Part shown: piece by piece, positions 7,998-17,069 of the stretch
Layout: every line of letters begins with the position of its first letter
Position numbering within the stretch: position 1 is the first letter of the stretch
Assembly (NCBI GenBank): GCA_001303445.1
Contig: LJTQ01000060.1
Span: 1-35,135, forward strand
DNA: 35,135 nucleotides
Origin: Betaproteobacteria bacterium SG8_39
GTDB taxonomy: Bacteria > Pseudomonadota > Gammaproteobacteria > Burkholderiales > SG8-39
Direction of reading: 5' to 3'
The notes under the pieces: generated by a model
The model's input: the letters and a program-made list of their open reading frames with translations, nothing else
What the model was told of the DNA's origin: nothing
Databases searched by the model: none
Translations under genes and position numbers: made by a program

Positions 7998-8485
7998 GGG
8001 CGGTCGTCACCGCGGCGCTGCTGCTGCTTGCGCTGCGCGCGCACGCCTTCGACGTCGACGGTGTCGGCCCGGGGGCGAGCGAAGCCGACATCCACGGCGC
8101 GTTTCCGAGCGCCTACTGCAAGACGCTCGAATGGCGAAGCCAGGCGGCCGAGCGGCGCTGCGACGACGGGCAGATTTCCTTTGCCGGGGTGCAGGCGCGG
8201 ATCACGTTCTTCCTGCGCGGCGACGTGGTGCAGGGCTTCAACCTGCGATTCGCGACGAGCGATCAGCCGCGGGTGACGGCTGCGCTCAAGTCGCGCTGGG
8301 GCGCGCCCGCAGCCGAGACCCGGGACTTGATCCAGCGCAAGGGGCAGTCCGATCGCGAGGTCTACAAGATCACATGGAACAGGGCGGATGACCGGGCGAC
8401 GCTGATCTGGCGGCCCGATCACAAGCGCTGCTGGCTGATGGTATCGCGGGGAGACTTCGCGGAAGAGATCTATCGGGTGCGTTGA
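7994..8485 (+). CDS. secreted hypothetical protein
   Basis: The product has 163 residues with a short signal peptide (residues 1-18, ending AHA/F). The mature part is about 145 residues with several cysteines (C32, C51 and a late C near KRCW). GVGPGASEADIHGAFPSAYC near the start of the mature part suggests a small alpha/beta periplasmic domain that senses or modulates something, but I cannot name a family. The start codon overlaps the tag stop (ATGA), so translation is coupled. The coding frame is convincing; its function is unknown. Confidence 0.72.
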   Translation: MRAVVTAALLLLALRAHAFDVDGVGPGASEADIHGAFPSAYCKTLEWRSQAAERRCDDGQISFAGVQARITFFLRGDVVQGFNLRFATSDQPRVTAALKSRWGAPAAETRDLIQRKGQSDREVYKITWNRADDRATLIWRPDHKRCWLMVSRGDFAEEIYRVR

Positions 8486-8535
8486 GCAGGTGCCCGGTGT
8501 GCCTTTCGCGCAGCGCGCGGACGGGGACGAGAGCC

Positions 8536-10029
8536 ATGTTTGAGTCGGCGGAACTGGGTCACGAGCTTTCCAAGGGTGAGTTCAGGAAAGTCGAGCCGCG
8601 GCTGCGCGCGGATCTGCTCGACGCGCAGTACGCGCTGTCGCAGGACGGGCGCTTTCCGGTAATCGTCCTGATTTCGGGCGTGCGCGGCGCGGGCAAGGGT
8701 GAGACCGTCAATCTGCTCAACGAGTGGATGGATCCGCGCCACATCTTCACCTCGGCGTTCGACAAACCGACCGACGAGGAGCGCGAGCGCCCGCCGATGT
8801 GGCGCTTCTGGCGCGCGCTACCACCGAAGGGCAAGATCGGCATGCTGTTCGGCTCCTGGTACACCGGGCCGATCATCGATCGCGTGTTCAAGCGTTCCAG
8901 GCCGGCCGATCTCGTGCGCTCGATCGACGAGATCAACCGCTTCGAGAAGATGCTCGCCGACGATGGCGCGCTGATCCTGAAGTTCTGGTTCCACCTGTCG
9001 AAGAAGCGCCAGAAAAAGCGCCTCAAGGCGCTGGCGGACGATCCCGAGACGAGCTGGAAGATCACCAAGCGCGACTGGGACTTCTTCAAGCTCTATGACC
9101 GCTTTTATGCGGTGAGCGAGGAGGCGCTGCGCGAGACCTCGACCGCCTGGGCGCCGTGGATCGTGGTCGAAGGCTCGGATCCGGAATACCGTGCGGTGAC
9201 CGTCGGCCGCACGCTGCTCGAGGCGATGCACAGGCGCCTCGCGGCGCCGCCCGAGCGGCGGGCGAAGAAAAGCGATGCGGCGCCGCTGGTGCGCCCGGTC
9301 GACAACCTGCAGATCATCGACACGCTCGACCTGTCGGTGAGCCTGGCGCGCGACAAGTACCGCGCGGCGCTGCGCAAGCGGCAGCGCGAGCTCGCGCTGC
9401 TCACGCGCCATCCGAAATTCAACCGGCACACGGTGGTGGCGGTGTTCGAGGGCATGGACGCGGCAGGCAAGGGCGGCGCGATCCGCCGCATCACTGCGGC
9501 GCTCGACGCGCGGTTGTACCGTGTCATTCCGATCGCCGCGCCGAGCGACGAGGAGCGCGTGCAGCCCTACCTGTGGCGCTTCTGGCGCCACGTGCCGCGC
9601 GCGGGACGCTTCACGATGTACGACCGCAGCTGGTACGGCCGGGTGCTGGTCGAGCGCGTCGAGGGCTTCGCCCAGGAAGCCGACTGGATGCGTGCCTACG
9701 CCGAGATCAACGACTTCGAGGAGCAGCTCGCGCGGCACGGCGCGGTGGTCATCAAGTACTGGCTGCAGATCTCGAAGTCCGAGCAGCACAAGCGCTTCAA
9801 GCTTCGCGAGAAAACGCGCCACAAGCAGTTCAAGATCACGCCCGAGGACTGGCGCAATCGCGAGAAGTGGAACGCCTACCAGGTCGCCGCGGCCGACATG
9901 ATCGAGCGCACCGGCACGGCGCAGGCGCCCTGGGTGATGGTCGAGTCGAACGACAAGTACTGGGCACGCGTGAAGGTGCTCGACTCGCTGGTCGAGGCGC
10001 TCGAGGCGCGGCTCGGCGGCCGCAGCTAG
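8536..10029 (+). CDS. pap: polyphosphate:AMP phosphotransferase (two-domain PPK2)
   Basis: The 497-residue product is made of two tandem PPK2 domains, the length typical of class II PPK2/PAP enzymes. These transfer phosphate from polyphosphate to AMP, giving ADP. The C-terminal domain has an intact Walker A (EGMDAAGKGG, residues 305-314) and a lid/Walker B region with YDRSWYGR (Y362, D363). The N-terminal domain keeps a Walker A (SGVRGAGKGE, 48-57), but the matching place reads LFGSWYTG (104-111), with no aspartate. The first domain is therefore probably degenerate in catalysis and structural or regulatory in role. The ATG at 8536 is preferred over a TTG at 8482 because the family starts near MFESAELG. 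The protein is cytoplasmic. Confidence 0.92.
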   Translation: MFESAELGHELSKGEFRKVEPRLRADLLDAQYALSQDGRFPVIVLISGVRGAGKGETVNLLNEWMDPRHIFTSAFDKPTDEERERPPMWRFWRALPPKGKIGMLFGSWYTGPIIDRVFKRSRPADLVRSIDEINRFEKMLADDGALILKFWFHLSKKRQKKRLKALADDPETSWKITKRDWDFFKLYDRFYAVSEEALRETSTAWAPWIVVEGSDPEYRAVTVGRTLLEAMHRRLAAPPERRAKKSDAAPLVRPVDNLQIIDTLDLSVSLARDKYRAALRKRQRELALLTRHPKFNRHTVVAVFEGMDAAGKGGAIRRITAALDARLYRVIPIAAPSDEERVQPYLWRFWRHVPRAGRFTMYDRSWYGRVLVERVEGFAQEADWMRAYAEINDFEEQLARHGAVVIKYWLQISKSEQHKRFKLREKTRHKQFKITPEDWRNREKWNAYQVAAADMIERTGTAQAPWVMVESNDKYWARVKVLDSLVEALEARLGGRS

Positions 10030-10063
10030 AGCCGGGCGTGGAGTGCCTTGACGCGGAGGCGCG

Positions 10064-10576
10064 ATGAGCACGGTCCGCGCCATCGTCGTCAGAGAGGTTC
10101 GCGAGGCATTGCCGCCGTTCGTCTTCTTTCTCGTTCTGTTTCACCTGATCGCGCTCACCAAGGCGGTCGCGCTCGACGAGTACAGCGTCACCGCGCTGCG
10201 CGCAACGTTCGCCACGGTCGGTGCGCTCATCGTCGCCAAGGCCATTTTGCTGGTCGAGGCGCTGCCGATCCTCCGGCTGCGCTCGGCGAGCCGCTTGATC
10301 GAGCTGCTGTGGAAAACGCTGCTTTTTGCCCTCGTCGCGCTCGCCTTTCGCTTTCTGGAAGAGCTGCTGCCTCTGGTCGCAAAATACGGCAGCGTGGTGA
10401 CGGCCGTTGACCGTTTGCTGGACGAGGTGCACTGGCCTCTGTTCTGGGTCATCGCCCTGTGGATGCTCCTCAGCCTGTTTTGCTATTGTGTCGCCGCCGA
10501 ACTGGTGCGCGCACTGGGTGTCGCAAACGTCCGGCAGGCGCTATTCGGCCGGGGTGGCGGGAGAGCCGAACGCTGA
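10064..10576 (+). CDS. four-helix integral membrane protein, unknown
   Basis: A 170-residue protein with about four transmembrane helices (near residues 17-38, 48-68, 84-105 and 124-146) and a basic C-terminus. A Shine-Dalgarno CGGAGG lies just before the ATG. I recognise no characterised family. A glutamate (residue 68, in LLVEALP) and an arginine/glutamate pair (RFLEELLP) lie in or near the helices. It follows the polyphosphate phosphotransferase gene by 34 bases and probably shares its transcript. It is convergent with the AraC gene. Confidence 0.75.
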   Translation: MSTVRAIVVREVREALPPFVFFLVLFHLIALTKAVALDEYSVTALRATFATVGALIVAKAILLVEALPILRLRSASRLIELLWKTLLFALVALAFRFLEELLPLVAKYGSVVTAVDRLLDEVHWPLFWVIALWMLLSLFCYCVAAELVRALGVANVRQALFGRGGGRAER

Positions 10577-11680: not shown

Positions 11681-11912
11681 CTCGAACCGAACCCCGGTTT
11701 CCCGATGTCGCGAATTGTCGATTAATTGTCCGGTTTCGACAATGCGGGGCCGCCAAAACGTGGTGACAATCGCAAATGCCCTTTTCGGCGGCCCGTGATC
11801 TGGCGCGCGCCTTTGTGTTGGATCAAGACGGTTGCGAGAGGCGAGGGCAACCTTCGCCGAGGCGGGCACACCGCAATTCCATTCCTCTGCAGGCAAGGTA
11901 CGGAGGCGCAGA
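11681..11912. other. divergent intergenic region of the AraC gene and exported-protein locus
   Basis: This is the largest gap between genes in the window (232 bases), and it holds the half-site cluster described separately. The part from 11771 to 11912 shows no further repeat that I can see. A Shine-Dalgarno CGGAGG at 11901-11906 belongs to the next gene. Confidence 0.6.
11714..11770. promoter_or_regulatory. candidate operator: GACAAT/ATTGTC half-site cluster
   Basis: An 8-bp inverted repeat, ATTGTCGA (11714-11721) and TCGACAAT (11736-11743), has a 14-base spacer. An extra ATTGTC lies at 11725-11730 and a further GACAAT at 11765-11770. TTGTCG and GACAAT are 17 bases apart on both strands, so the same bases could serve as weak promoters in both directions. 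The position 34-90 bases upstream of the AraC start fits autoregulation plus control of the divergent genes. Confidence 0.5.
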
Positions 11913-12686
11913 ATGATTCGCACAGCTAGGCGGCACGCCGCAGGTCTGATTGCGGCCCTTACGCTTTTCCCGGTCGTGCTGCACGCCGGTACGGCGCAGG
12001 CTGCGGGCGTCGATCCTCAGGCCGAAAAGCTGCTCAAGGCTTCGACCGACTTCCTCGCGGCGCAAAAGCGCTTCAGCGTCGACACGCGCAGCACGCTCGA
12101 GGTCGTGCTCGAGTCGGGCCAGAAGCTGCAGTTCGATCATGCCGTGCGCGCCACCATGCGGCGCCCCAACAAGCTGCGCGCCGAGCGCGTCGGCGACCTG
12201 ATCGACCAGGTCTTTTATTACGACGGCAAATCGCTCACCCTCTACAACCCGGGCGCGAAATTCTACGCCACGGTCGCGGCGCCCGGGACGCTCGAGGAAA
12301 TGCTCGATTACGCGCGCGAGAAGCTCGACATCGTCGCCCCGGCGGGCGACCTGCTGTACCGCAACGCGTTCGAGATCCTGATGACCGACGTCACCGACGG
12401 CTTCATCGTCGGCAAGGCGGCGATCGAGGGCGCGCGCTGCGTCCACCTCGCCTTCCGCGCGCCGCACGTCGACTGGCAGATCTGGATCGAGGACGGCAAG
12501 CGGCCGCTGCCGCGCAAGCTGGTCATCACCTCGCGCGACGTCGTCAACGCACCGCAGTTCACGACCGTGATGACGAAGTGGAAGCTCGCGCCGAAGGTCT
12601 CGCAGCGCCTGTTCGAATTCAGGCCGCCGAAGGGCGCCAAGAAGGTCGAGTTCCTGCCGCTCGTCGGAGAAACGCAATCGCGCTAA
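11913..12686 (+). CDS. DUF2092 family exported protein
   Basis: This 257-residue periplasmic protein has a signal peptide to about residue 30 (ending AQA/AG) and a good ribosome site (CGGAGG) before the ATG. The mature sequence fits DUF2092: a helix with LLKASTDFLAAQKRFSVD, the strand segment MRRPNKLRAERVGD, then VFYYDGKSLTLYNPGAKFYA and DWQIWIEDGKRPLPRK. The fold of this family is thought to be LolA/LolB-like, a half-barrel that binds lipid-like ligands; no enzyme activity is known. It is the first gene of the exported locus, followed after 17 bases by the next gene. A role in shuttling a hydrophobic substrate is my inference. Confidence 0.87.
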   Translation: MIRTARRHAAGLIAALTLFPVVLHAGTAQAAGVDPQAEKLLKASTDFLAAQKRFSVDTRSTLEVVLESGQKLQFDHAVRATMRRPNKLRAERVGDLIDQVFYYDGKSLTLYNPGAKFYATVAAPGTLEEMLDYAREKLDIVAPAGDLLYRNAFEILMTDVTDGFIVGKAAIEGARCVHLAFRAPHVDWQIWIEDGKRPLPRKLVITSRDVVNAPQFTTVMTKWKLAPKVSQRLFEFRPPKGAKKVEFLPLVGETQSR

Positions 12687-12703
12687 ATGCGGAGGACACT
12701 GGG

Positions 12704-13138
12704 ATGAAAATGACACTCAACCGGTTGCTGCTCGCCGCTGCACTGCCGCTGCTGCTTCTCGCCGATATCGCACCGCACGCCCTGCTCGGCCTGAGCTTTG
12801 TGCGCGAGGCGGCCGCAATCATCGGTCGGCCCTTGACGCCCGTTTCCTACGCCGGGGTCGCGCGTCGCACGACGCGTCGCGCGGTGTACGCAACGAGCGT
12901 TACGGCGAGCTCTGCGGCATCGGCCAGCGCATCGCAACAACAGCAACAACAGCAGCCGGCCGCACCGCCCCCGTCGCCGCCGGCGGGTTCTTTGCCGGTC
13001 GGCACCGTCGTCTCGGCCCTTCCTTCGGGCTGCGTCTCGGCGCCGATCAGCGGCGTCGAGTATTACCTCTGTGGTGGGGTGTATTACCGCCCGGCGTTCC
13101 AGGGCAACAACCTGATCTACGTGGTGCAAAAGCCCTGA
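12704..13138 (+). CDS. exported Q/P-rich small protein, DUF6515-like
   Basis: This 144-residue protein has a signal sequence (KMTLNRLLLAAALPLLLLAD). An S/A-rich stretch precedes a glutamine run (Q78-Q84, encoded by repeated CAACAACAG) and a proline-rich linker. A C-terminal domain of about 45 residues contains LPSGCVSAPISGVEYYLCGG and VYYRPAF. Two cysteines flank this small domain and could form a disulfide. The tail resembles the YYxCxGxYYRP pattern of DUF6515-like secreted proteins; function unknown. GGAGGA precedes the ATG. It lies between the DUF2092 and sulfatase genes, so it may be a periplasmic or surface partner of the sulfatase. Confidence 0.72.
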   Translation: MKMTLNRLLLAAALPLLLLADIAPHALLGLSFVREAAAIIGRPLTPVSYAGVARRTTRRAVYATSVTASSAASASASQQQQQQQPAAPPPSPPAGSLPVGTVVSALPSGCVSAPISGVEYYLCGGVYYRPAFQGNNLIYVVQKP

Positions 13139-13200: not shown

Positions 13201-16122
13201 ATGAAATCACGAATTACTCTTCTGCTCGTGGCCGCGGCACTCGCGTCACCATTTGCGGCGATTTCCCAAAGCACCGGCGCGCTCGATCGCACCGTGCTGC
13301 CGATCCCGGATCCGAAGCGCCCGCTTTATAAGCAGCTCGACGCGCGCACCGTGAAGGCGCCGCCCCGCTTCCAGGTCAAGGCGCCTGCCGGCGCGCCGAT
13401 GCCCTCGTCCTTCGGCGGTCCGGTGCCGATGCCGACGATGGACGCACTCGCAAAGCAGGGCCTGCGCTACAACAATTTCCACACCACGGCGCTGTGCTCG
13501 CCGACGCGCGCCGCGCTGAAGGCGGGGCGCAACCATCACACGGTGAACATGGGCTTCATCACCGAGATGGCGACGTCGTTTCCGGGCGCGACGGGGCAGA
13601 TCCCGAACAGCACGGCGCCGCTCGCCGAGACGCTGCGCCTCAATGGCTACAGCACCGCGGCGTTCGGCAAATGGCACGAGACGGCAAGCTGGGAAGCGAG
13701 CGTCGCCGGGCCGTTCGACCGCTGGCCGACGCGGCAGGGCTTCGACAAGTTCTACGGCTTCCTTGGGGGCGAAACGAACCAGTGGGCGCCGTACCTGTAC
13801 GACGGCGATGCCCAGGTCGGGCTGCCCGACGATCCGAACTACCACTTCCTCACCGACATGACCGACAAGGCGGTGGCGTGGCTCAAGTACCAGAAAGCGC
13901 TGACGCCGGACAAGCCGGCGTTCATCTACTTCGCACCGGGGGCGACGCACGCGCCGCACCACGTGCCGAAGGAGTGGATCGCACGCTGGCAGGGCAAGTT
14001 CGAGCAGGGCTGGGACGCACTGCGCGAGGAGACGCTCGCCCGCCAGATCCAGATGGGCCTCGTGCCGCCGGGCACCCAGCTTGCGCCGAAGCCGGCGGCG
14101 ATCAAGGACTGGGACAAGCTGTCGGCGGACGAGAAGCAGCTGTTTACGAAGCAGGTCGAGGTGTTTGCCGCCTATGCGGAGTTCACCGACCACGAAGTGG
14201 GCCGTTTGCTCAAGGCTTTCGAAGCGGTCGGCCAGGCCGACAACACGCTCGTTTTCTACATTGCCGGCGACAACGGCACCAGCGGCGAGGGCGGCCAGAA
14301 CGGCATGTTCAACGAGTACACCTACTTCAACGGTGTGCACGAGAAGGTCGGGGACATGCTCAAGCGCCTCGAGCAGTGGGGCGGCCCCGAAACCTACCCG
14401 CACATGGCCGCGGGCTGGTCGGTTGCGCTGGACGCGCCGTTCGGCTGGATGAAGCAGGTGCCGTCGGACTTCGGCGGCACGCGCAACGGCATGGTGGTGC
14501 GCTGGCCCAAGGGCATCAAGGCAAAGAACGAGGTTCGCACCCAGTTCGGCCACGTGATCGACATCGCGCCGACGATCCTGCAGGCGATCGGGCTGCCCGA
14601 ACCCAAGCTCGTCAACGGCGTGAAGCAGATCCCGATGGAAGGCAAGAGCCTGCTGGCTTCGTTCGACAATCCCAAGGCGAAGGGCCGCACGACGCAGTAC
14701 TTCGAGATCGCCGGCAACCGCGCGATCTACCACGACGGCTGGTACGCGCGCACCATCCATCGCGCGCCCTGGGAGCCGAAGGGGCGGCACCCGCTCGACA
14801 AGGACGTGTGGGAACTGTACGACGTGCGCGCCGACTTCAGCCTGGCGAACGACCTTGCGGCGAAGCACCCGAAGAAGCTCGCCGAGCTGCAGGCGCTCTT
14901 CATGCAGGAGGCCGAGAAGTATCACGTCCTGCCGATCGACGACCGGGTATTCGAGCGCCTGGACGCCAAAGCCGTCGGCCGTCCGGATCTCATGGGCGGG
15001 CGCAGCTCGCTGACCCTGGCAGAAGGCATGACCGGCATGCTGGAAGCCGTCTTCATCAACGTGAAGAATCGCTCCAAGACGATCACCGCCGACATCGAGG
15101 TTCCGGCGAGTGGTGCGAACGGCACGATCATCGCGCAGGGCGGGCGTTTCGGCGGCTGGTCGCTGTACGTCAAGGACGGCGTGCCGGCCTACGCCTACAA
15201 CTTCCTCGGCCTGCAGCGCACCACGATCGCCGCCGCGAAGCCACTCGCGTCGGGCAGGCACACGCTGCGTTTCGAGTTCGCCTATGACGGCGGCGGGCCG
15301 GGCAAGGGCGGCATGGGCACCCTGTCCGTCAACGGGGAGAAGGCTGCGGAAGGGAGAATCCCCCACACCCAGGCCGGCATCTTCTCGGCCGACGAGACCG
15401 CCGACGTCGGCATCGACCTCGGCACGCCGGTGGTCGAGGCGATCGGGTCGGAGGCGAAGTCGCGCTTTACGGGGCGCATTCCGAAGCTGACGGTGGAAGT
15501 GCATGCCGCGGCCCCCGCCGACAAGGCTGCGGGTGACGCGGCGGCGAAGGAAGCGAAACGCAAGATCGAGGAAGTTCCGGCCGCGCATGGCCTGCCGCCT
15601 TCGGTCGAGGCCGCGAGCTTCGCCGTGTATCAACCCGGGGTCGCCGGTGGCGTTGTCTCCCGCACTGTCGAGGTCAGCGCTACGGTGACCGCCATCGACA
15701 AGGTGAAGCGCGAGGCAACGCTGAAGGGGCCCGACGGGGGCACCGTCACCGTCAAGGTCGGGCCGGAGGCGGTCAACTTTGACCAGGTGGAAGTCGGTGA
15801 CACCGTCAATGCGACGCTCACGCGTGAGCTGGTGGCATTCGTCGTCGGCAAGGACGCGACCGTGCGCGACGATGCGGCCGCCGCGATGGCGCGCGCCAAG
15901 AAGGGCGAGCAGCCGGGCGGCATGCTGGCCGGCACGGTGCAGCGGGTCGGCACGGTGGTGGAGATAGACCACTGGAAGCGTCGCGTGACGCTCCGCTTCG
16001 AGGACGGTTCGACCGAGACCTTCCCGGTGCGGCCCGACGTGAACATGAGGGCGCATCAGGTCGGCGAGAAGGTCGTCTTCCAGGCCACCGAGGCGATCGC
16101 CGTCGACGTCACGAAACGCTGA
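13201..16122 (+). CDS. exported arylsulfatase-like protein, metal-site segment missing, with C-terminal repeat extension
   Basis: This 973-residue protein has a Sec-type signal peptide (about 1-22). Residues 90-600 match the large bacterial arylsulfatase A family: FHTTALCSPTR with the formylglycine Cys C99, FGKWHE, YFAPGATHAPHH, and GDNG with D357/N358. Residues 600-767 form the usual beta-rich C-terminal domain. Relatives have a strand such as NVVIVLIDDxGFG between GAP and the SSFGGP motif. Here GAP (64-66) joins directly to MPSSFGGP, so about 13 residues with both Asp metal ligands are absent, in frame. After residue 767 a 206-residue extension carries an A/K-rich linker and two similar repeats (about 827-882 and 917-970). 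A sulfate-ester hydrolase ancestry is clear; present activity is doubtful. No maturase gene is in the window. Confidence 0.88.
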   Translation: MKSRITLLLVAAALASPFAAISQSTGALDRTVLPIPDPKRPLYKQLDARTVKAPPRFQVKAPAGAPMPSSFGGPVPMPTMDALAKQGLRYNNFHTTALCSPTRAALKAGRNHHTVNMGFITEMATSFPGATGQIPNSTAPLAETLRLNGYSTAAFGKWHETASWEASVAGPFDRWPTRQGFDKFYGFLGGETNQWAPYLYDGDAQVGLPDDPNYHFLTDMTDKAVAWLKYQKALTPDKPAFIYFAPGATHAPHHVPKEWIARWQGKFEQGWDALREETLARQIQMGLVPPGTQLAPKPAAIKDWDKLSADEKQLFTKQVEVFAAYAEFTDHEVGRLLKAFEAVGQADNTLVFYIAGDNGTSGEGGQNGMFNEYTYFNGVHEKVGDMLKRLEQWGGPETYPHMAAGWSVALDAPFGWMKQVPSDFGGTRNGMVVRWPKGIKAKNEVRTQFGHVIDIAPTILQAIGLPEPKLVNGVKQIPMEGKSLLASFDNPKAKGRTTQYFEIAGNRAIYHDGWYARTIHRAPWEPKGRHPLDKDVWELYDVRADFSLANDLAAKHPKKLAELQALFMQEAEKYHVLPIDDRVFERLDAKAVGRPDLMGGRSSLTLAEGMTGMLEAVFINVKNRSKTITADIEVPASGANGTIIAQGGRFGGWSLYVKDGVPAYAYNFLGLQRTTIAAAKPLASGRHTLRFEFAYDGGGPGKGGMGTLSVNGEKAAEGRIPHTQAGIFSADETADVGIDLGTPVVEAIGSEAKSRFTGRIPKLTVEVHAAAPADKAAGDAAAKEAKRKIEEVPAAHGLPPSVEAASFAVYQPGVAGGVVSRTVEVSATVTAIDKVKREATLKGPDGGTVTVKVGPEAVNFDQVEVGDTVNATLTRELVAFVVGKDATVRDDAAAAMARAKKGEQPGGMLAGTVQRVGTVVEIDHWKRRVTLRFEDGSTETFPVRPDVNMRAHQVGEKVVFQATEAIAVDVTKR
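15679..16110 (+). repeat. two divergent protein repeats in the sulfatase C-terminal extension
   Basis: Two segments share the plan [A/G]TVxxID-x-x-KRxxTL, then a DG turn, an acidic/valine strand, and QVxVGDxV or QVGEKV. The first starts near ATVTAIDKVKREATLKGPDG (about residue 827) and the second near GTVVEIDHWKRRVTLRFEDG (about residue 917). They look like paired small beta-barrel or OB-like units, which elsewhere I would expect in a separate exported protein. The similarity is by eye. Confidence 0.6.
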
Positions 16123-16226: not shown

Positions 16227-17069
16227 ATGAAGCACGCATTGCTGACTGCCGCGCTCGCCGGCCTCGCGCTGCTTGCGCCGTTGCAGGCCTCGGCGCAGGC
16301 CGCGGCCGATCGCTGGACCTTTTCCGTCATGCCCTACCTGTGGTTGCCGAGCCTCGACGCCAAGCTGAATTACGGCCCGCCGCCCGCGAGCGGCGCGAGC
16401 GCCAACGTCGATGTCAATGCCAGCACGCTGCTCGAGAATCTCGACTTCGCCTTCATGATCAACGGCGAGGCGCGCAAGGGTCGCTGGCTGCTCGCGACCG
16501 ATGTCATCTATCTCGATTTGAGTAGCTCCGACAGCAAGGTGAAAAGCGTCGACTTCAACCCGGGCCCGGGGCGCGTCAACATATCGACCGCTGCGCTCGA
16601 CGCGGGCACCAACGTGAAACTCACGGGCTGGCTCTGGACGGCGGTTGGCGGATATGCGGCCGTCCAGGCGCCGCGTGCGAGCCTCGACGTCATCGGCGGG
16701 TTGCGCTACCTGGGCCTGACGGCCAAGACCGACTGGCAGCTGACGACGACGGTCACCGGCCCGGCGGGCACGACGCCGTTCGCGCGAACGGGCAGCGTGG
16801 AGAAGTCGAAGGACGTCTGGACGGCCATCGTCGGGGCAAAAGGACGCGCGAAGCTGGGCGAGGGCGACTGGTTCCTGAACTACTACGTCGACCTCGGTGG
16901 CGGGTCGTCGACGTTCACCTGGCAGGGCGTCGCGGGCGTCGGCTATGCCTTCAAATGGGGCGAGCTCGTCCTCGACTACCGCTATCTGAGTTACAGCCAG
17001 AGCGGCGACAAGTTGTTTGACGACTTGAGCCTCGGCGGCGTCGCGCTCGGCGCGAGCTTCCGGTTCTGA
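16227..17069 (+). CDS. outer-membrane beta-barrel protein
   Basis: This gene encodes 280 residues with a signal peptide (1-24, ASAQA). The mature protein shows alternating hydrophobic strands and aromatic girdles, starting with DRWTFSVMPYLWLPSLDAKL and ending in a C-terminal strand whose last residues are FRF, the usual BAM-recognised phenylalanine end. The segments GGLRYLGL, WFLNYYVDLGGG and LVLDYRYLSY are typical of OmpA/OmpW-sized eight-stranded barrels. GGGGAG precedes the ATG. It is 104 bases downstream of the sulfatase gene. It may be a pore or receptor for the system; the substrate is unknown. Confidence 0.82.
   Translation: MKHALLTAALAGLALLAPLQASAQAAADRWTFSVMPYLWLPSLDAKLNYGPPPASGASANVDVNASTLLENLDFAFMINGEARKGRWLLATDVIYLDLSSSDSKVKSVDFNPGPGRVNISTAALDAGTNVKLTGWLWTAVGGYAAVQAPRASLDVIGGLRYLGLTAKTDWQLTTTVTGPAGTTPFARTGSVEKSKDVWTAIVGAKGRAKLGEGDWFLNYYVDLGGGSSTFTWQGVAGVGYAFKWGELVLDYRYLSYSQSGDKLFDDLSLGGVALGASFRF

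Follow-up and report, generated by a model that had tools for sequence, protein, structure and literature searches.

Among the closest known systems to the gene analyzed here is the arylsulfatase PAS/AtsA of Pseudomonas aeruginosa (structure 1hdh), which PMC5066984 classes as S1_4 and describes as having four calcium ligands, Asp13, Asp14, Asp317 and Asn318. The window, a stretch of 35,135 nucleotides that is contig C176 of its source genome (an environmental-DNA draft, or MAG, of 3.14 Mb in 233 contigs, 84.5% complete), encodes a protein that shares the sulfatase fold and motifs of this enzyme (phmmer 3.6e-50). Apart from one gap, the gene reads as that of an ordinary formylglycine arylsulfatase of the S1 type, secreted and dependent on calcium.

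Pfam matched the protein to PF00884 (1.9e-52, 178.9 bits against a cut-off of 25) over residues 64-464 and profile positions 12-300 of 301, and to PF16347 (SGSH_C; 2.7e-7). Entry into PF00884 was at position 12 of 301, compared to position 1 or 2 in the three other PF00884 matches of the source genome. The ORF listing starts the gene at an in-frame upstream ATG at 13138 (994 aa); we number from the ATG at 13201, which is preceded by AAAGGA and where, by eye, a signal-peptide-like stretch starts. Domain limits beyond those of Pfam were also set by eye. The gene and its parts are as follows:

13201..16122, + strand: sulfatase gene, 973 aa (ORF list; ATG 13201, stop 16120-16122), with an N-terminal signal-like segment, a sulfatase domain at residues ~64-570, a further domain to residue ~770 and a C-terminal extension at residues ~800-973
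13390..13410, + strand: junction of GAP and MPSS, between 13398 and 13399, where the first strand with its two calcium-binding Asp residues is absent
13495..13509, + strand: CSPTR, the formylglycine motif (C/S-x-P-x-R), with C99 encoded by TGC at 13495-13497
13669..13677, + strand: K157-W158-H159, counterpart of the PAS K-W-H that includes His115, paired by alignment
13945..13962, + strand: THAPHH, residues 249-254, with T249, H250 and H254 present
14266..14277, + strand: GDNG (G356-D357-N358-G359), in which D357 and N358 are the counterparts of PAS Asp317 and Asn318
14452..14454, + strand: K418 in WMKQ, which does not vary in alignment A1 and is presumably the counterpart of PAS Lys375
15601..16119, + strand: C-terminal extension (residues 801-973), fused to the sulfatase in the window gene and in its relatives L003 and L004

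The first-pass annotation held that GAP runs directly into MPSSFGGP with about 13 residues missing in frame, and that CSPTR with C99, KWH, THAPHH and GDNG are all present. The ORF and an alignment to the closest relative, L004, bear out the missing residues, and every one of the motifs can be read in the window protein. Codon 66 (CCG), the last of GAP (residues 64-66), ends at 13398, and codon 67 (ATG, M67 of MPSSFGGP) begins at 13399. Absent between them, in frame, are 13 residues (39 bases) spelled like N-V-V-I-V-L-I-D-D-x-G-F-G in close relatives; the alignment to L004 puts the loss at exactly 13 residues. L001, the copy found in the genome itself, matches the window gene without difference, gap included. 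The segment that would hold the first calcium-ligand pair on the first strand (Asp13/Asp14 of AtsA) is missing, and of the calcium site only the second pair (D357-N358 of DNG) is kept. Another sulfatase of the source genome (L103, on G000:C48) has CTAGR in place of C-x-P-x-R.

Distribution and age of the gap

None of the 112 homologous loci (111 distinct, L097 repeating L004) lacks the first-strand block with its two aspartates, which was recognized in 107 of them by the pattern N-x6-DD-x-G followed by C/S-x-P-x-R and in five by eye (L086, L092, L093, L094 and L110). When 84,980 species genomes were scanned, 158 stretches encoded relatives; the best 80 of these are among the 112, and all 80 carry a P-N-x6-D-D block. 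The further 32 loci were matched in genomes of relatives (61), of the family (98), of the order (399) and of the class (369), with a separate E-value limit for each search. Across 63 intact homologues aligned, N40, D47, D48, G50 and F51 are invariant (of 78 segments that could be used, alignments A1 and A2 include 63). The only same-genus genome examined, G001 (97% complete), gave no match at E 1e-50, so that the closest comparison is L004, which is 84% identical over 972 columns. Motif types are mixed in the group, with 84 CSPTR and 13 SSPTR among the 107 pattern matches. Four distant sulfatases of related genomes (L086, L092, L093 and L094) have C-S-T-T-R in place of C-S-P-T-R, and L110, an orthologue from a different genome of the order, carries an in-frame stop codon after the Asp pair and ahead of CSPTR.

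The first-pass annotation had proposed asking whether orthologues in related genomes share the gap, and none of the 112 loci does. Among the relatives examined, the gap appears private to the source genome and young, and we do not take it as the mark of a conserved pseudoenzyme. Three readings had been offered at the outset: a recent inactivating deletion and a sequence error of a multiple of three, both of which fit these results, and a pseudo-sulfatase kept for binding, which they do not support. The last would be an inactive folded protein maintained to bind sulfated ligands or to partner the neighboring DUF2092 and outer-membrane proteins. The frame is open over all 973 aa, which speaks for it; however, the gap is absent from every homologous locus, and selection on the protein does not clearly look long relaxed or changed in direction, which leaves this reading unsupported. 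The other catalytic motifs are still present. We consider it very unlikely.

To the extent that age can be read from the rest of the gene, the window copy looks little altered. In an 82-row alignment (without L064, which has a truncated ORF, L097, which equals L004, and the distant L083-L096), uniformity is 95% or more in 293 columns, and the window departs at eight, of which six lie in the gap and two are D to E. Of the 287 near-invariant positions outside the gap, these two D to E changes are thus the only ones altered. Departures at the 293 columns number four in L004 and one in L003, with a maximum, setting aside the divergent L099, of 12 (L072). Apart from the gap and the N-terminal signal region, the alignment to L004 shows one internal indel in ~970 aa, a single residue long.

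Values of dN/dS from the window copy are 0.17 to L004, 0.20 to L012, 0.16 to L006 and 0.26 to L003, and those among intact pairs are 0.20 (L004-L012), 0.14 (L004-L006) and 0.24 (L004-L003), so that the window-L004 value lies within range; it reflects mostly the history before the loss event. Restricted to residues 60-470, the window gives 0.199 to L012 against 0.176 for L004, and 0.131 to L006 against 0.094, and the two are about equal to L003. On accelerated evolution of the window copy, relative-rate results were mixed and not decisive: 7 of 22 comparisons exceed a chi-square of 3.84, with the window branch longer in four and the other branch longer in three. This lack of a consistent rate change also speaks against a maintained pseudo-sulfatase, whereas the mild excess of unique changes in the window over L004 with 7 of 8 outgroups, two of them above 3.84, speaks for it. 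Nothing clearly marks a long time without function, which argues that the event is young or an artefact. Given the higher dN/dS at residues 60-470 and the 7 of 8 outgroups, the loss could still be somewhat older.

Predicted structure and metal site

AlphaFold2, which is no test of stability, was given residues 28-600 of the window protein and, with an unchanged set of homologues, the corresponding part of L004. The window model reached a mean pLDDT of 75.4 and a pTM of 0.82 (five models, 75.4 down to 59.1), compared to 83.7 and 0.91 for intact L004 (83.7 to 81.0). In L004, strand 40-47 leads into the aspartates D47/D48; the window model contains nothing that corresponds to this strand and no visible replacement for it, and strands 74-80, 137-144, 226-234 and 335-341 shorten to 61-63, 124-129, 213-218 and 324-328. 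Compared with 1hdh_A, the window model aligns with Z 33.0 and 2.7 A over 474 residues from chain residue 12, and the L004 model with Z 43.7 and 2.2 A over 489 from chain residue 3. The protein as written would almost surely have no sulfatase activity and probably folds poorly. The weakened predicted fold is a further point against a pseudo-sulfatase maintained in folded form.

Alternatively, the sulfatase could be active with its metal site rebuilt from aspartates supplied elsewhere, which the first-pass annotation had named as a result that would overturn its reading. In favor, Asp14 is variable (76% conserved) and Asp13 is replaced in rare sequences according to PMC5066984, and the other motifs of the window protein are intact. 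Here, however, the loss takes an entire strand and more than a single residue, the alignment shows no additional acidic motif, and the junction (model residues 29-40) has pLDDT below 50. The match to 1hdh starts at model residue 37 (G64) and chain residue 12, which, judged from the range starts only, would put G64-A65-P66 about where Asp13 and Asp14 lie. Both alignment and structure prediction were searched for such substitute aspartates, and none was found; a rebuilt site is the least probable of the readings, and we give it almost no weight.

Neighboring genes and maturase

The sulfatase gene is flanked by three neighbors:

11832..12686, + strand: DUF2092 predicted periplasmic protein, upstream (Pfam 7.9e-75; homologues on 16 of 80 loci)
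12701..13138, + strand: weakly DUF6515-like small protein, directly upstream (E 2.3e-4, below the cut-off; homologues on 10 of 80 loci)
16227..17069, + strand: 280-aa protein, outer-membrane-barrel-like by eye, downstream (no Pfam match; homologues on 21 of 80 loci)

These counts refer to the best 80 of the 158 sulfatase loci, some of which are ended early by contig ends. All three neighbors occur together with the sulfatase on four of the 80 loci (L003, L004, L010 and L015), and two of the three on other loci, including three from Verrucomicrobia (L031, L035 and L064) in which the pair is DUF2092 and the barrel-like protein. The C-terminal ~170 residues have a counterpart, 47-55% identical, that lies upstream of and apart from the sulfatase in three loci (L071:6001-6489; L045:6001-6492; L039:1043-1534, ~5.5 kb from the sulfatase). 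No Pfam family matched this extension above its cut-off, CusF_Ec falling below it at E 0.0012.

No formylglycine-generating enzyme (FGE) and no anaerobic maturase (anSME) was found in the 84.5% complete source genome. Its one PF03781 protein is nearest SenA/EgtB, with 379 bits to SenA, below the cut-off of 420 for that model. A PF03781 match occurs in 12 of the 15 genomes that carry intact relatives and is absent from three (G486, G490 and G492); the anSME cut-off was passed by two (G484 and G488) of ten genomes tested, eight of which hold intact relatives. As G490, with neither a PF03781 nor an anSME match, and G491, with just a split 73-bit PF03781 match, carry intact orthologues and likewise lack a clear maturase, the missing maturase is weak evidence of inactivity. 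Just downstream of the L003 sulfatase (~9117-10268) lies an anSME match of 474 bits, if G484:C1 is the same record as that locus.

The absent maturase, and the DUF2092, DUF6515-like and sulfatase neighborhood that is kept at L003 and L004 too, are what a pseudo-sulfatase kept for binding might lead one to expect. In its lineage-specific form, the protein would have dropped its calcium-binding strand, perhaps with the maturase, and become a secreted binder of sulfated ligands in a DUF2092/outer-membrane cassette, a scenario to which we attach a marginally smaller probability still than to the general one. A search of the open-licence literature for inactive sulfatases described as a pseudosulfatase or pseudoenzyme with formylglycine returned no paper. 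Were the gap found in several strains, a sulfatase without the strand that begins its core sheet would show a route from sulfatase to binding protein. With a single copy from a single draft genome, the case is mainly a caution, in that the domain and CSPTR alone would suggest an active sulfatase.

Possible deletion or assembly error, and known sulfatases

Our preferred explanation, to which we give an even chance, is a single, private and recent in-frame deletion of 39 bases in the sulfatase gene of the source strain. The product would lack the first core beta strand and with it the counterparts of Asp13/Asp14 of the P. aeruginosa arylsulfatase; loss of the strand would leave no calcium site at the formylglycine and hence no sulfatase activity. 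The gene would be a newly broken allele, with too little time for decay elsewhere. We place this only slightly ahead of an assembly or consensus error, in which the gene of the organism is intact and ~39 bases were dropped while the contig was built; the latter falls a little short of an even chance, the two are nearly tied, and we do not defend the margin.

Several observations favor such an error. The source genome is fragmented and incomplete (233 contigs, 84.5%), and the remainder of the gene looks fully functional. Within the sulfatase domain, the 82-row alignment has gaps of at least four residues only in the window and in L071, those of L038, L045, L070 and L099 falling outside the domain, and the 22-residue gap of L071 coincides with NN in its record and is read as an assembly gap. 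As the only other sizeable gap in the domain is of this kind, such faults do occur in the same gene. Assembly error is a known source of false pseudogenes according to PMC11017572, which concerns frameshifts and stops and not in-frame losses.

Other features of the window argue against an error. It contains no Ns or ambiguous bases, and the sulfatase gene itself has just the one single-residue internal indel against L004 noted above. A PPK2 stretch (8038-10013) aligns to the same-genus G001 at equal lengths (1976 and 1976 bases, 85%), and a second stretch (74% to G001) differs by one base, 1018 versus 1019. An in-frame length would be a ~1-in-3 chance for a random error.

Two specific routes to the loss were tried and rejected. 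The first, an assembly tangle through DNA shared between genomes, would place the missing block in a hot spot of cross-genome identity. Among 3081 pairs of 79 orthologues (without the window, L064, L071, L097, L099 and the distant L083-L096), the block stands near the median instead: its rank out of 767 is 370 when exact runs of 21 bases or more are counted, 360 for 27 or more and 399 for 33 or more. The second, slippage between direct repeats, found no long repeat at the two gap borders in the DNA of relatives (13 loci), which also weighs against an assembly error; whatever the codon choice, a direct repeat at these borders would probably amount to at most 1-2 matching bases.

Most likely, this is an otherwise normal S1 sulfatase gene with one private lesion or assembly fault, ordinary in kind and no new type of protein. 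Known systems frame the difference. The four calcium ligands of PAS (Asp13, Asp14, Asp317 and Asn318) have counterparts in the window protein for the last two only. A gut-symbiont mucin sulfatase (7all) is the tied best structural neighbor (Z 33.6, 2.6 A over 464; phmmer 9.9e-54), and its phmmer match starts only past the gap, with query residue 70 paired to residue 44 of the chain. The nearest relatives, L004 (= L097; Burkholderiales MAG FR_12) and L003 (bin78), are uncharacterized sulfatases 84% and 80% identical to the window protein over 972 columns. They resemble it in length class, in the C-terminal fusion and in the upstream DUF2092 and DUF6515-like genes; L003 differs in having Ser for Cys in the motif (SSPTR for CSPTR), and, unlike the window protein, both keep the 13-residue block with its Asp pair.
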